Position numbers and translations under genes: made by a program. Under the pieces are notes generated by a model, which saw nothing but the letters and a program-made list of their open reading frames with translations, was not told the origin of the DNA and made no database searches. This document shows positions 25,987-46,822 of a DNA stretch of 64,000 nucleotides, in pieces; the stretch's first letter is position 1, and every line of letters begins with the position of its first letter. The DNA lies in assembly GCF_014204895.1 (NCBI RefSeq), contig NZ_JACHMF010000001.1:7564001-7628000 (forward strand), given 5' to 3'. Origin of the DNA: Paractinoplanes abujensis (lineage in GTDB: Bacteria; Actinomycetota; Actinomycetes; Mycobacteriales; Micromonosporaceae).

Positions 25987-27159
25987 ATGGACTTCTCGCT
26001 CACCGACGAGGAACGCGCGATTCGCGACACCGCCCGCCAGTTCATCACCCGCGAGGTCATGCCGCTGGAGCAGGAGGCGCTGCTCCGCGAGCGCCGCCAC
26101 GAGCCCGGCCTCGACCGCAGCGAACTGCGCGAGCTACAGCTCAAGGCCAAGAAGTTCGGCTTCTGGGGTCTGTCCACACCGGAGGAATACGGCGGGATGA
26201 ACCTGCCGGCCGTCCTGCAGTCGCTGATCTGGACCGAGGTGGGCCGCACCTTCGTGCAGTTCAAATTCGGCGGCGAGGCCGACAACATCCTCTACTACGC
26301 CAATGAGCAGCAGAAACAGGAGTTCCTGGTCCCGACGATCGAGGGCGACCGGATCTCCTGCTTCGCGATCACCGAACCCGGGGCCGGCTCCGACGCGGCC
26401 AACATCAAACTCAGCGCCCGCCAGGACGGCGACGACTGGATCCTCAACGGCGAGAAGACGTTCATCACCAACGGCAACGACGCCGACTTCGTGATCGTCG
26501 TCGCGGTCACCGACCGGGAGAAGGGCGTCCGCGGTGGCGGCACCACGGCCTTCCTGGTCGACCGCGACATGGGCTGGCGCAGCGAGTTCATCCAGACCAT
26601 GGGCGAGGGCGGGCCGGCGTCGCTGATCTTCGACGACGTACGGGTGCCCGCGCGCAACATCCTGGGCGAGATCGGCCAAGGCTTCGAGCTGGGCATGAAG
26701 TGGATCGGCAAGGGGCGCTACCTGATCCCCTCCAACGCGCTGGGCATCGCCGAGCGGTCGCTGGGCATGGCGGTCGACTATGCCAACACGCGCGAGACCT
26801 TCGGCCGGAAGATCGGCGAGAACCAGGCCATCCAGTGGATGATCGCCGACTCCGAGGTCGAGCTGGAGGCGGCCCGCTGGCTCATCCTGCGCGCGGCCTG
26901 GACCGTTGACCAGGGCGAAGACCCGCGGCACGCGTCGTCGATGGCCAAGCTTTACGGCGCCCAGATGGTCAACAACGTGGTCGACCGGGTCATGCAGATC
27001 CACGGCGGGATGGGGTACACCCGCGAGCTTCCGATCGAACGGTGGTACCGCCAGGTGCGACTCATGCGTATCTATGAAGGTACAGATGAGATGCAGCGCC
27101 TGATCATTTCCCGCGACCTGCTCCGCGGGTACACCAAGATCGGAGGGCACTTGGCATGA
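25987..27159 (+). CDS. Acyl-CoA dehydrogenase
   Basis: 390 residues with the family fold: FAD-binding CFAITEPGAGSDAANI near residues 119-134, the WILNGEKTFITNG segment, and the C-terminal GGMGYTRELPIERWYRQ and IYEGTDEMQR with the usual catalytic Glu region. It introduces a 2,3-double bond into acyl-CoA, passing electrons to ETF. Its stop codon overlaps the first of three repeated mini-ORFs (ATGA), which link it to the CoA ligase gene. Confidence 0.93.
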   Translation: MDFSLTDEERAIRDTARQFITREVMPLEQEALLRERRHEPGLDRSELRELQLKAKKFGFWGLSTPEEYGGMNLPAVLQSLIWTEVGRTFVQFKFGGEADNILYYANEQQKQEFLVPTIEGDRISCFAITEPGAGSDAANIKLSARQDGDDWILNGEKTFITNGNDADFVIVVAVTDREKGVRGGGTTAFLVDRDMGWRSEFIQTMGEGGPASLIFDDVRVPARNILGEIGQGFELGMKWIGKGRYLIPSNALGIAERSLGMAVDYANTRETFGRKIGENQAIQWMIADSEVELEAARWLILRAAWTVDQGEDPRHASSMAKLYGAQMVNNVVDRVMQIHGGMGYTRELPIERWYRQVRLMRIYEGTDEMQRLIISRDLLRGYTKIGGHLA

Positions 27160-27357
27160 CTGACTGCACCGGAGTCAGCGAAGCGGCCGTAGGGCCAGGA
27201 AGGCATGCCGGGGAGGCTCAGCATGACTGACTGCACCGGAGTCAGCGAAGCGGCCGTAGGGCCAGGAAGGCATGCCGGGGAGGCTCAGCATGACTGACTG
27301 CACCGGAGTCAGCGAAGCGGCCGTAGGGCCAGGAAGGCATGCCGGGGGAGGCTCAGC
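27156..27357 (+). repeat. Three tandem 67/67/68 bp repeats between two operon genes
   Basis: Copies start at 27156, 27223 and 27290 and appear identical except for one extra G in the third. Each contains ATGACTGACTG at its start, the 8 bp palindrome GGCATGCC, and GGGGAGG placed 6 nt before the next ATG. The fourth ATG, at 27358, is the start of the CoA ligase gene. The array therefore multiplies the ribosome site plus ATGA junction. It has no resemblance to a CRISPR array because there are no spacers. Confidence 0.95.
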
Positions 27358-27361
27358 ATGA
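27156..27361 (+). other. Chain of three overlapping mini-ORFs
   Basis: The three repeats encode peptides of 24, 24 and 23 residues (27156-27230, 27223-27297, 27290-27361), each beginning MTDCTGVSEAAVGPGRHAG. The first ATG overlaps the dehydrogenase stop (ATGA), the next two overlap the preceding mini-ORF by 8 nt (ATGACTGA), and the last stop overlaps the ligase ATG (ATGA). Each start has a strong purine-rich ribosome site. A ribosome could pass from gene to gene by reinitiation. Whether the peptides themselves matter is unknown. Confidence 0.55.
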
Positions 27362-28896
27362 CGCAACTGTCGCTCGCCACCGTCCTGGCGGAGTCGGCCC
27401 GGAAATATCCCGACAAAATTGCCGTAATAGACAGCTTGACCACCGAGCGGATCACCTATCGCGACCTGTGGCAACAGACCTTGGCGTACGCGGGAGGTCT
27501 GCAGAGCCTCGGCATCGGACCCGGTGACGTGGTCGCGATCCAGATCCCCAACCTCGCCGACTTTCCCCGTGTCTACTACGCGGTGCTGGCGGCGGGCGCC
27601 ACGATCGTCCCGATGCACCTGCTCCTGACCCCTGAGGAAAACGCGTTCGTCCTCCAGGACAGTGGCGCAAAGCTGCTCATCGCACACTCCAGCCAGCTGG
27701 AGAACGCAACGGCGGCCGCCAGGATCGCAGGAGTGAAGATCGCCTCGGTCGGTCCGCCCGTACCGGGAATTGACCGTCTGGAGGAAGCGGGGGAGAAACC
27801 GCTCAAAAGGTACGTCAGTCGCGAGGCCGAGGACGTGGCGGTCGTCTTCTACACGAGCGGCACCACCGGCAAACCCAAGGGCGCCCTGCTCACCCACCTC
27901 AACCTCGTGATGAACACGATGGTCAACGTCTTCGACATCCACGACCTCAACGACGACGACATCGTGATGGGCTGCCTGCCGCTGTTCCACACCTTCGGCC
28001 AGACCGTAGGCATGAACGGCACGTTCCGGCTGGGCGGCACGATAGTGCTGATGGCCCGTTTCACCGGCGAGGCCGCGATCCAGCTGATGGTCCGCGAGAA
28101 CGTGACGATCTTCCACGGCGTCCCGACGATGTACATCGGCCTGCTCGAGGCCGCGGCCAAGGCCGACACCCTGCCCCAGCTGCGGCTCTGCGTGTCGGGC
28201 GGCGCGTCGCTGCCGGTGGCCGTGCTGGAGAAGTTCACCGAGACCTTCCACGCGACGATCTACGAGGGCTACGGGCTGTCCGAGACCTCACCCACGGCGA
28301 CCACCAACCAGCCCGCGTTCGGCGCCAAGCCGGGCACGATCGGGCATCCGATCTGGGGTGTCGAGGTGGAGATCGCGCGGGCTGAGGTCGACGAGCGGAT
28401 CGAGCTGCTCGACGACGGCGAGCTGGGCGAGATCGTGATCCGGGGGCACAACGTGTTCGCCGGCTACCTCAACAACCCTGAGGCCACGGCGGAGGCGGTC
28501 GTCGACGGCTGGTTCCGTACGGGGGATCTCGGGGTCAAGGACGCGGACGGCTTCATCTCGATCGTGGACCGCAAGAAGGACCTGGTGATCCGGGGCGGTT
28601 TCAACGTGTATCCGCGTGAGGTGGAGGAGGCGCTGGCCCGGCACCCGGCCGTGCAGCAGGTGGCCGTGATCGGCGTGCCTGACCCGGTGCACGGCGAGGA
28701 GATCTGCGCGGTGGTCGTGCCCGACCCGGGCGGTGTCACTGCCGAGGAACTGATCGACTGGTCGCGCGAGAAGCTCGGCAAGCACAAATATCCGCGGCAG
28801 ATCCGGTTCGCCGAGACGCTCCCGCTGGGGCCCAGTTTCAAGGTGCTCAAGCGTGAGCTGCGCAAGACGTACGGGTCAGGTCAGCAGGGCGGGTAG
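27358..28896 (+). CDS. Acyl-CoA synthetase (fatty acid-CoA ligase)
   Basis: 512 residues of the ANL adenylating superfamily. The P-loop YTSGTTGKPKG lies near residues 165-175, the A5 motif is EGYGLSETSP, the A7/A8 region is GWFRTGDLG and DRKKDLVIRGGFNVYPREVE, and the A10 lysine is in the terminal SFKVLKRELRK. It activates a carboxylic acid through acyl-AMP to acyl-CoA, the substrate for the dehydrogenase upstream. GGGGAGG stands 6 nt before the ATG. The end overlaps the convergent Nudix gene by 21 bp. Confidence 0.93.
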   Translation: MTQLSLATVLAESARKYPDKIAVIDSLTTERITYRDLWQQTLAYAGGLQSLGIGPGDVVAIQIPNLADFPRVYYAVLAAGATIVPMHLLLTPEENAFVLQDSGAKLLIAHSSQLENATAAARIAGVKIASVGPPVPGIDRLEEAGEKPLKRYVSREAEDVAVVFYTSGTTGKPKGALLTHLNLVMNTMVNVFDIHDLNDDDIVMGCLPLFHTFGQTVGMNGTFRLGGTIVLMARFTGEAAIQLMVRENVTIFHGVPTMYIGLLEAAAKADTLPQLRLCVSGGASLPVAVLEKFTETFHATIYEGYGLSETSPTATTNQPAFGAKPGTIGHPIWGVEVEIARAEVDERIELLDDGELGEIVIRGHNVFAGYLNNPEATAEAVVDGWFRTGDLGVKDADGFISIVDRKKDLVIRGGFNVYPREVEEALARHPAVQQVAVIGVPDPVHGEEICAVVVPDPGGVTAEELIDWSREKLGKHKYPRQIRFAETLPLGPSFKVLKRELRKTYGSGQQGG

Positions 28897-45993: not shown

Positions 45994-46130
45994 CTTTCTC
46001 TCCGCGCACGTCAACCGCCTGTTTCCAACTTGTTTCCATGCGCATTTCCCGGATGGCGCGCCCTTTGCCGCCGCGCACCATCCCCGGGCCGGCTGCCTTG
46101 ATCGCCCACCCGCCGCCCGCGCCGCGCCTT

Positions 46131-46440
46131 GCCGCGCCGCACCGAGCCGAGCCGAACCGCGCCGCACCGAGCCGAGCCGCACCGAGCCGCGCCGCCCCGA
46201 GCCGCGCCGAGCCGAGCCGCGCCGAGCCGAGCCGCGCCGAGCCGAGCCGCGCCGAGCCGAGCCGCGCCGAGCCGAGCCGCGCCGAGCCGAGCCGCGCCAC
46301 CGCGCCGCGCCGAGCCGAGGCGCGCCGCACCGAGCCGAGCCGCGCCGCGCCGCGCCGAGCCGCGCTGAGCCGCGCCGCGGTATGCCGTGCCGCGGTACGC
46401 CGTGCCGAGCCGCGCTACGCCGAGCCCTGCCGTGCCCACG
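46131..46440. repeat. Pentamer array (GCCGM)n with 15 bp higher-order unit
   Basis: About 62 pentamers GCCGA/GCCGC follow each other, with one register shift near 46300. From 46201 to 46290 the 15-mer GCCGCGCCGAGCCGA is repeated six times without a change. Since 15 is a multiple of three, most frames on both strands stay open (AEPSR-type or ARRGS-type repeats), which does not imply a protein. The 924 bp between livG and alkB otherwise holds the operator at 45977, the 27 bp array at 46551 and, in 46441-46544, nothing I can recognise. Confidence 0.95.
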
Positions 46441-46550
46441 GCGCGATGCCGCGCCGGCCCGCGCGTTGATACGCAACGCGCCCATGCGATCGCGCCACGA
46501 TCAGACCGCATCGGGACGCGCTGGGCTGGTTACGCTTCAATGTCATGCAG

Positions 46551-46712
46551 GCTCCGCGCCGCGTAAAGGTTGCGCTGGCTCCGCGCCGCGTAAAGGGTGG
46601 GCTGGGTCTGCGCCGCGTAAAGGTTGGGCTGGGGCCGCGCCGGGCGAAGGTTGGGCTGGGTCTGCGCCGCGTAAAGGTTGGGTTGGGGCCGCGCCGGGCG
46701 AAGGTTGGGCTG
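46551..46712. repeat. Six tandem 27 bp repeats
   Basis: Units start at 46551, 46578, 46605, 46632, 46659 and 46686. Units 3-4 and 5-6 form a nearly identical 54 bp higher-order pair, alternating CGCCGCGTAAAGG and CGCCGGGCGAAGG cores. An open frame from ATG 46545 to 46790 reads them as nine-residue units such as PRRVKVGLG and LRRVKVGLG, and TACGCT stands 8 nt before that ATG. On the minus strand the same units read QPNLYAAQT/QPNLRPARP. Which, if any, is expressed is unknown. Confidence 0.9.
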
Positions 46713-46822
46713 GGTTCGCGGTCGGCCGGGACGGGCGGCGTGGGTCGCGGCCGATGGCCGGCGTGGCGGCGGGCGCGTAGGTGGTGGTGAGGTCGGGCGG
46801 GGGCTCCGTGTCGGTGGTGGGG

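Follow-up and report, generated by a model that had tools for sequence, protein, structure and literature searches.

The three tandem repeats that connect an acyl-CoA dehydrogenase gene to an acyl-CoA ligase gene in the window (the whole 64,000-nt stretch of DNA analysed here) belong to a dispersed family, which we consider likely to be a mobile, non-autonomous element that inserts at (A/G)TGA (RTGA) stop/start overlaps or start codons matching its own inner arm, with translation kept through a mini-ORF. As far as sequence can tell, the family is dispersed, occupies sites that are empty in relatives, is constrained in its reading frame, carries SD tails in association with that frame, covaries between flank and inner arm, and is biased in its targets.

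The array (27156-27357) consists of three units of 67, 67 and 68 nt, each with an ATG mini-ORF and an SD tail, and chains the dehydrogenase stop to the ligase start, the ligase ATG lying at 27358. TRF scored the array at 409 with 99% matches, well beyond what chance would produce, and units 1 and 2 are identical. An earlier note on this DNA had described three tandem copies, each holding GGGGAGG, an ATG and an ORF of 23-24 codons, and the coordinates, TRF and ORF positions agree with that description. Its reading of the junctions can likewise be made directly in the sequence: ATGA stands at both outer junctions, where the first mini-ORF start overlaps the dehydrogenase stop (27156-27159) and the last mini-ORF stop overlaps the ligase start (27358-27361), and ATGACTGA forms the overlap between units 1/2 and 2/3. 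GGGGAGG occurs at 27210, 27277 and 27345, with CTCAGC between each occurrence and the next start. The features of the locus are as follows:

25987..27159, + strand: acyl-CoA dehydrogenase gene (Pfam PF00441, PF02770, PF02771); its stop, TGA, shares bases with the first ATG of the element
27142..27147, + strand: GGAGGG within the dehydrogenase 3' end, seen in the sequence; possibly the junction's original ribosome site, which now faces mini-ORF 1
27153..27155, + strand: target flank GGC, forming the covarying stem's 5' side
27156..27222, + strand: element unit 1, 67 nt, 44-nt core class
27156..27230, + strand: mini-ORF 1, 24 aa
27201..27209, + strand: AGGCATGCC, the inner arm belonging to unit 1; it complements GGCATG as well as the CT that follows ATGA, and its invariant G faces the A of ATGA
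27210..27216, + strand: GGGGAGG, SD-like tail of unit 1
27223..27289, + strand: element unit 2, 67 nt
27223..27297, + strand: mini-ORF 2, 24 aa; an alternative in-frame ATG at 27205 is possible
27277..27283, + strand: GGGGAGG of unit 2
27290..27357, + strand: element unit 3, 68 nt, a length usual in its class
27290..27361, + strand: mini-ORF 3, 23 aa, whose TGA overlaps the ligase ATG; an alternative in-frame ATG at 27272 is possible
27345..27351, + strand: GGGGAGG of unit 3, SD-like site for the ligase
27358..28896, + strand: acyl-CoA ligase (AMP-binding enzyme) gene (Pfam PF00501, PF13193)

GGAGGG is present also ahead of the empty site in the ortholog L224. The one-base insertion that had been proposed for the third copy was not borne out: 68 nt is the usual unit length, found in 30/35 final copies with a 44-nt core, and units 1 and 2 therefore appear to lack a base, rather than unit 3 having gained one. 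The two shorter units still stop, because ATGACTGA supplies a TGA in their frame. Elsewhere in the window, long GC-rich tandem arrays with periods of 5/15 and 27/54 nt extend over 46111-46720; they have no visible relation to the element.

Stretches similar to the array recur elsewhere in the genome of the window (9.33 Mb, single contig), with E-values down to 2.4e-41. A covariance model matched this genome 16 times and, since one array that was matched twice (L377) holds three units, the genome carries at least 17. At E up to 0.01, the same model matched 88 of 250 genomes of the family, namely 57/61 genomes of the same genus (judging from the named matches, apparently Actinoplanes in the GTDB sense) and 31/189 genomes of the family's other genera, spread over six of them. 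A strict pattern matched 47/200 relatives, all 47 within the 67 same-genus genomes, and its reversed control matched none. At the level of the class, model R1 (E up to 0.001) matched 3/394 genomes: the window's own, one from the related genus g4 and one that belongs to a distant family. The last of these (G646) holds a single strong match (L423), which could reflect recent transfer or assembly contamination. A scan with organism names returned 117 stretches; the 80 named ones came from Actinoplanes, Paractinoplanes and near genera, together with scattered chance-looking matches in unrelated bacteria, and Mycobacterium was absent among these 80. Such repeats in Actinoplanes or Micromonosporaceae, or at ATGA overlaps, were not reported among the matches listed in a literature search that covered little of the subscription literature, and none is described in the available portion of the Actinoplanes SE50/110 genome paper.

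Elements are mostly about 57-93 nt long, and their cores (ATGA to GGCCAGG) fall mainly into classes of 64, 44 and 35 nt. Tandem copies were found in other genomes as well. In the window's genome, going by Pfam, two units separate a PALP-type enzyme gene from tryptophan synthase alpha, and others stand between the two members of an ABC transporter gene pair, of a BPD_transp_1 permease pair and of a WYL regulator pair, or lie ahead of a ROK gene; four units of 87-89 nt at 1.16 Mb are flanked by genes without a Pfam match. The search of the genome and its relatives that the earlier note had proposed yielded a dispersed family, with zero to three copies at the dehydrogenase/ligase junction. Scatter over unrelated places with random frame relations, which the same note had named as the observation that would count against it, was found in its first half: units do sit at unrelated places, but in frame relations that are non-random. 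Units mostly run in the same direction as the contiguous ORFs, with antisense exceptions such as L041 and L377. In both of these, the start codon at the target reads GTCATGAC, which is nearly palindromic, and the elements or arrays lying antisense to neighbouring genes also include L106 and L203.

A close homolog of the dehydrogenase was present in 41 genomes, of which G058 (64%, junction not orthologous) and G024 (plain spacer) were set aside, leaving 39 for comparison. Among these comparable orthologous junctions, 30 are empty, with a plain RTGA overlap, and nine are filled with one to three copies of 44-, 64- or 35-class units. The filled tips are spread over the gene tree of the dehydrogenase (40 tips), on which the filled/empty state needs nine Fitch changes. 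The filled sites are also biased in sequence: GGC precedes ATGA in 9/9 filled and 14/30 empty orthologous junctions (Fisher p 0.005; here as in all site, frame and stem counts, genomes are taken as independent, shared ancestry included). Against a wider background, the flank is GGC or GTC in 97 of 138 filled junctions, which include non-overlap sites, versus 41 of 186 empty RTGA junctions, which were taken from DNA around other elements via a coding heuristic (p 2.6e-18). First copies start on the stop of the upstream gene in 86/110 cases, and the other 24 lack, by the test used, a gene ending at the element TGA. Two decayed copies (50 and 47 nt) have lost the stem and keep the frame at 2 mod 3.

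To describe how reading frames pass through the element, we used the distance from its RTG to the downstream start in 116 final copies of the Actinoplanes set, a count from which we excluded 25 internal copies, 14 copies with no start in the interval where one was expected and three with no frame downstream. The distance was 2 mod 3 in 95 copies, 0 in 16 and 1 in five. Of the 95, all except two stop exactly on the downstream start, whereas the 16 with a distance of 0 fuse in frame with the downstream gene. The SD tail follows this division: a match of at least 5 was present in 68/95 copies at 2 mod 3 versus 2/16 in-frame fusions. Indels compensate one another, so that cores of 43, 44 and 45 nt all reach the downstream start at 68 nt. 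The unbroken termination-reinitiation path that had been noticed in the window is therefore general, the mini-ORF stop overlapping the downstream start in 93/116 final copies here and in 11/41 in other genera.

In those other genera, fusion prevails. The 41 final copies counted there (48 internal copies and 18 others left out) comprise 29 fused, 11 stop-restart and one other; a cruder count over these loci, 48 in all, assigned 28 to fusion, 10 to stop-restart and none to other, and left 10 without assignment. An SD match of at least 4 was found in 0/29 fused versus 9/11 stop-restart copies. Eight of the 11 stop-restart copies lie at one shared junction (L317, L318, L320, L321, L324, L325, L340 and L344). 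At L317, the downstream gene is the acetolactate synthase small subunit, a Pfam assignment made for this locus alone, with a similar downstream start in the other seven, and the upstream ORF ends just ahead of the element rather than on it. The elements at the acetolactate synthase junction measure 56-59 nt, have an SD and follow a GTC flank (CTC in L340). Thus, as judged from frames and SD matches, passage through the element by way of the mini-ORF is constrained, mostly to two forms, stop-restart with an SD tail or in-frame fusion mostly without one, and we infer that ribosomes actually travel the mini-ORF.

The encoded peptide is another matter. A motif shared at the DNA level reads EGQE in 72/74 cores of the 64-nt class and GPG or GPR in 46/46 of the 44-nt class; because the conserved DNA is read in different frames, the peptide beyond the first residues is not conserved across classes. 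The suggestion that a conserved peptide is itself a product accordingly found no footing, the recurring part being the first residues alone (M-T/S/I-D/E-C/R-T).

The three bases before the element, together with its A/GTG, pair with an internal arm to form a stem that covaries from site to site. The A of ATGA stands opposite G in 124/124 units, and the next two bases pair in 94/124 and 124/124. Across 63 aligned units, 95.1% of cells are paired versus 85.3% in shuffles, and 61 cells show two-sided changes against a shuffle mean of 11.9, a value that 0/500 shuffles equalled; one of the five stem measures, the number of pairs changed on both sides, was less striking at 6 versus 4.1 and was reached by 15/500 shuffles. 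When the stem partner was slid by one to three columns, pairing fell to 24-48% of cells. G-U pairs are tolerated in the stem. The pairing extends to the RTG itself: units with GTG on the left have CAC in 29/32 cases, and those with ATG have T at the same position (CAT) in 116/124, the 32 being those of 42 GTG places with a retrieved locus, the armless L285 left out. Furthermore, both sides of the stem differ together between orthologous junctions, with ATG/CAT versus GTG/CAC and similar interiors in L090 versus L267 and in L204 versus L282; L271 and L274, which share one 35-nt-class interior, carry GTC/GAC and GGC/GCC, respectively.

All three flank bases pair in 101/112 first copies (shuffle mean 48, maximum 62). 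The 11 that are unpaired at some flank base include one with an alternative 7-nt match and two likely chance matches (L143 and L152), which are contained in the 112 and were excluded from later counts. In L087, the usual register could give way to pairing between the arm and a 7-nt flank that is shifted (CGCTGCC with GGCAGCG). The fourth flank base pairs less often than in shuffles (18 versus 29 of 112), as if the stem must end after three. Later tandem copies pair at all three flank bases in 4/14 cases, less than first copies do. In other genera, 37/49 first copies pair at the three bases (shuffle mean 22.9, maximum 33), with three of the 49 read in the wrong register and scored as unpaired. 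The idea that a polymerase copies the target into the arm is disfavoured, since it predicts T across from the A of ATGA, where G is found in 124/124.

Under the insertion reading, the element would target (A/G)TGA stop/start overlaps, or start codons, that are preceded by bases matching its inner arm, and the resulting unit would run from the target's RTGA through a body, whose arm is complementary to the three flank bases plus RTG, and a tail to a second RTGA. The upstream gene would keep its stop, the mini-ORF would start on that same RTG and then end on the downstream RTGA beside a new SD; in the alternative outcome, the mini-ORF would continue in frame into the downstream gene, with no need of an SD. 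Both genes would still be readable, and insertion would therefore be nearly neutral for the operon. Tandem copies probably represent later duplication. The target bias and the antisense insertions suggest a target-guide role for the arm, the survival of decayed copies without a stem also counts in its favour, and the match between arm and target seems to precede insertion, because filled sites prefer GGC/GTC over the empty-junction background. For the step in which flank-arm pairing directs insertion, we consider the case evenly poised. A more specific version sees a minimal element without genes except for the mini-ORF; here the arm CA(T/C)N'N'N' would act as a guide that pairs with NNN(A/G)TG, would thereby select stop/start overlaps in operons as well as start codons, and would diversify to new sites in the service of a mobilising enzyme. 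This is offered tentatively and with somewhat less than even confidence; no candidate for the enzyme was found, Y1_Tnp being detected in 21/67 genomes of the genus and not in the window's own genome. Besides the missing enzyme, what weighs against the insertion reading is that energy folding shows the stem in one of four units, that 11 first copies and most later tandem copies pair incompletely with the flank, and that 24 first copies do not follow a gene ending at the element TGA; the joint differences of both stem sides at orthologous sites could equally reflect post-insertion selection.

The main competing account takes the stem to be an mRNA structure selected after insertion, which would keep the junction closed until it is melted by the ribosome that completes the upstream gene and would thereby enforce coupling, the arm evolving to fit the flank. 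We regard this as rather unlikely, although the tolerance of G-U pairs and the joint differences of both stem sides at the orthologous junctions L090/L267, L204/L282 and L271/L274 are what it would lead one to expect. The two decayed copies persist stemless with their frame kept, the antisense insertions have no obvious coupling role, and the preference for GGC/GTC flanks over the empty background speaks for a match at the time of insertion. Moreover, minimum-energy RNA folding of four units showed the stem in the 35-nt class alone (z -1.98); it was not seen in the unit from the window (z -1.03), in one of the 64-nt class (z -0.59) or in one from another genus (z +0.83), which weighs against a strong role in the mRNA outside the 35-nt class.

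Movement in trans by TnpA of a non-autonomous IS200/IS605-type (Y1, single-strand) element strikes us as improbable. In IS608, the guide lies at the 5' foot of the hairpin, whereas the putative guide here is 3' of the hairpin, and a genome with at least 16 units lacks any detected Y1_Tnp, so that a Y1 transposase as the present-day mover is unsupported. The 35-nt-class body nevertheless folds as one long hairpin, and IS608 is known to recognise a short target by base pairing (PMC5934647). More doubtful still is a regulator specific to this locus, whose copy number would tune the coupling of the two enzymes or whose peptide (MTDCTGVSEAAVGP...) would be a functional product, as the earlier note had proposed. 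The kept mini-ORF frame and the variation from zero to three copies among species would suit such a role, but units also adjoin unrelated genes (tryptophan synthase, ABC transporters, ROK, WYL), 30/39 comparable orthologous junctions have none, and the peptide beyond its start is not conserved, the classes using different frames; tuning of one pathway by copy number thus loses its ground. The identity of units 1 and 2 could be taken for an assembly artefact or for plain slippage of local coding DNA, an explanation that dispersed relatives and empty sites across many independent assemblies, together with the tandem copies of other genomes, render scarcely credible.

Among known systems, the closest in apparent manner of working are the mycobacterial MIRUs. 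According to a 2025 review (PMC12548453), MIRUs are apparently mobile, insert at start codons and affect the gene little, because their inner ORF is coupled to it with a spacing of -4 nt. Another article (PMC4473831) describes small ORFs that overlap the contiguous ORFs and run in the same direction, without dyad symmetry, and a passage in PMC4213456 reports three identical 77-bp units between senX3 and regX3 of H37Rv. Similarly, the present element is short and dispersed, its small ORF overlaps the contiguous ORFs at its ends (93/116 downstream, 86/110 upstream), and its direction is mostly theirs, the antisense cases excepted. It differs in the covarying stem, which includes the target flank and contrasts with the reported absence of dyad symmetry in MIRUs, compared here by published description, in its fused variant without SD, and in a host family that is not mycobacterial. 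Thus, the Actinoplanes-family element appears, by analogy, to work like MIRUs, and we did not file it as one because the host and the missing dyad symmetry of MIRUs do not fit.

Resemblance to other systems is narrower. Elements of the REP/BIME type are small, dispersed, hairpin-based and non-autonomous, all of which the present family shares, and REP sequences have a conserved GTAG at the hairpin foot. GTAG is not among the conserved columns of our alignment A2, and the present element differs further in lying at stop/start overlaps with a mini-ORF and often an SD. HEARO elements prefer ATGA/GTGA flanks, and like HEARO/IscB omega-RNA the family combines mobility with a structured RNA; its units are, however, too short for an IscB ORF. 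ATGA has no occurrence in the available portion of one HEARO paper, and an Rfam search of window positions 26900-27600 gave just two matches at E up to 10, both irrelevant and well short of the threshold, with the HEARO family not among them. With IS200/IS605 elements, the likeness would lie in target pairing by an internal sequence, as in IS608, whose target is recognised through base pairing with a short element sequence (PMC5934647); covariation and target bias fit this here, but may equally stem from selection after insertion. The differences are a target of about 6 nt with the start codon inside, an anatomy compatible with translation, and a host genome in which no Y1 transposase was detected.

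If the analogy with MIRUs holds, their way of life, insertion at a translational junction with the operon left unbroken, extends to another actinobacterial family, in which dozens of genomes offer clean empty sites and a statistical view of the frame and SD logic. Relative to the parts of the MIRU descriptions consulted, the novelty is the target-complementary arm that covaries with each site, and the choice of stop/start overlaps by such repeats therefore becomes directly testable, in soil bacteria for which an ordinary laboratory is sufficient. For annotation, the family is a warning that N-terminal extensions can be element-derived. In the window's genome, two 66-nt units (G000:C1:682042-682178; L002, L040) run in frame and without SD into the tryptophan synthase alpha gene, so that TrpA may carry an element-derived N-terminal extension of 44 residues. 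Extensions of 19n residues may arise in a related genus, where L345 (G328:C1:2528150-2528680) contains nine tandem in-frame units of 57 nt (19 codons), which would give the downstream protein a repetitive N-terminal extension.
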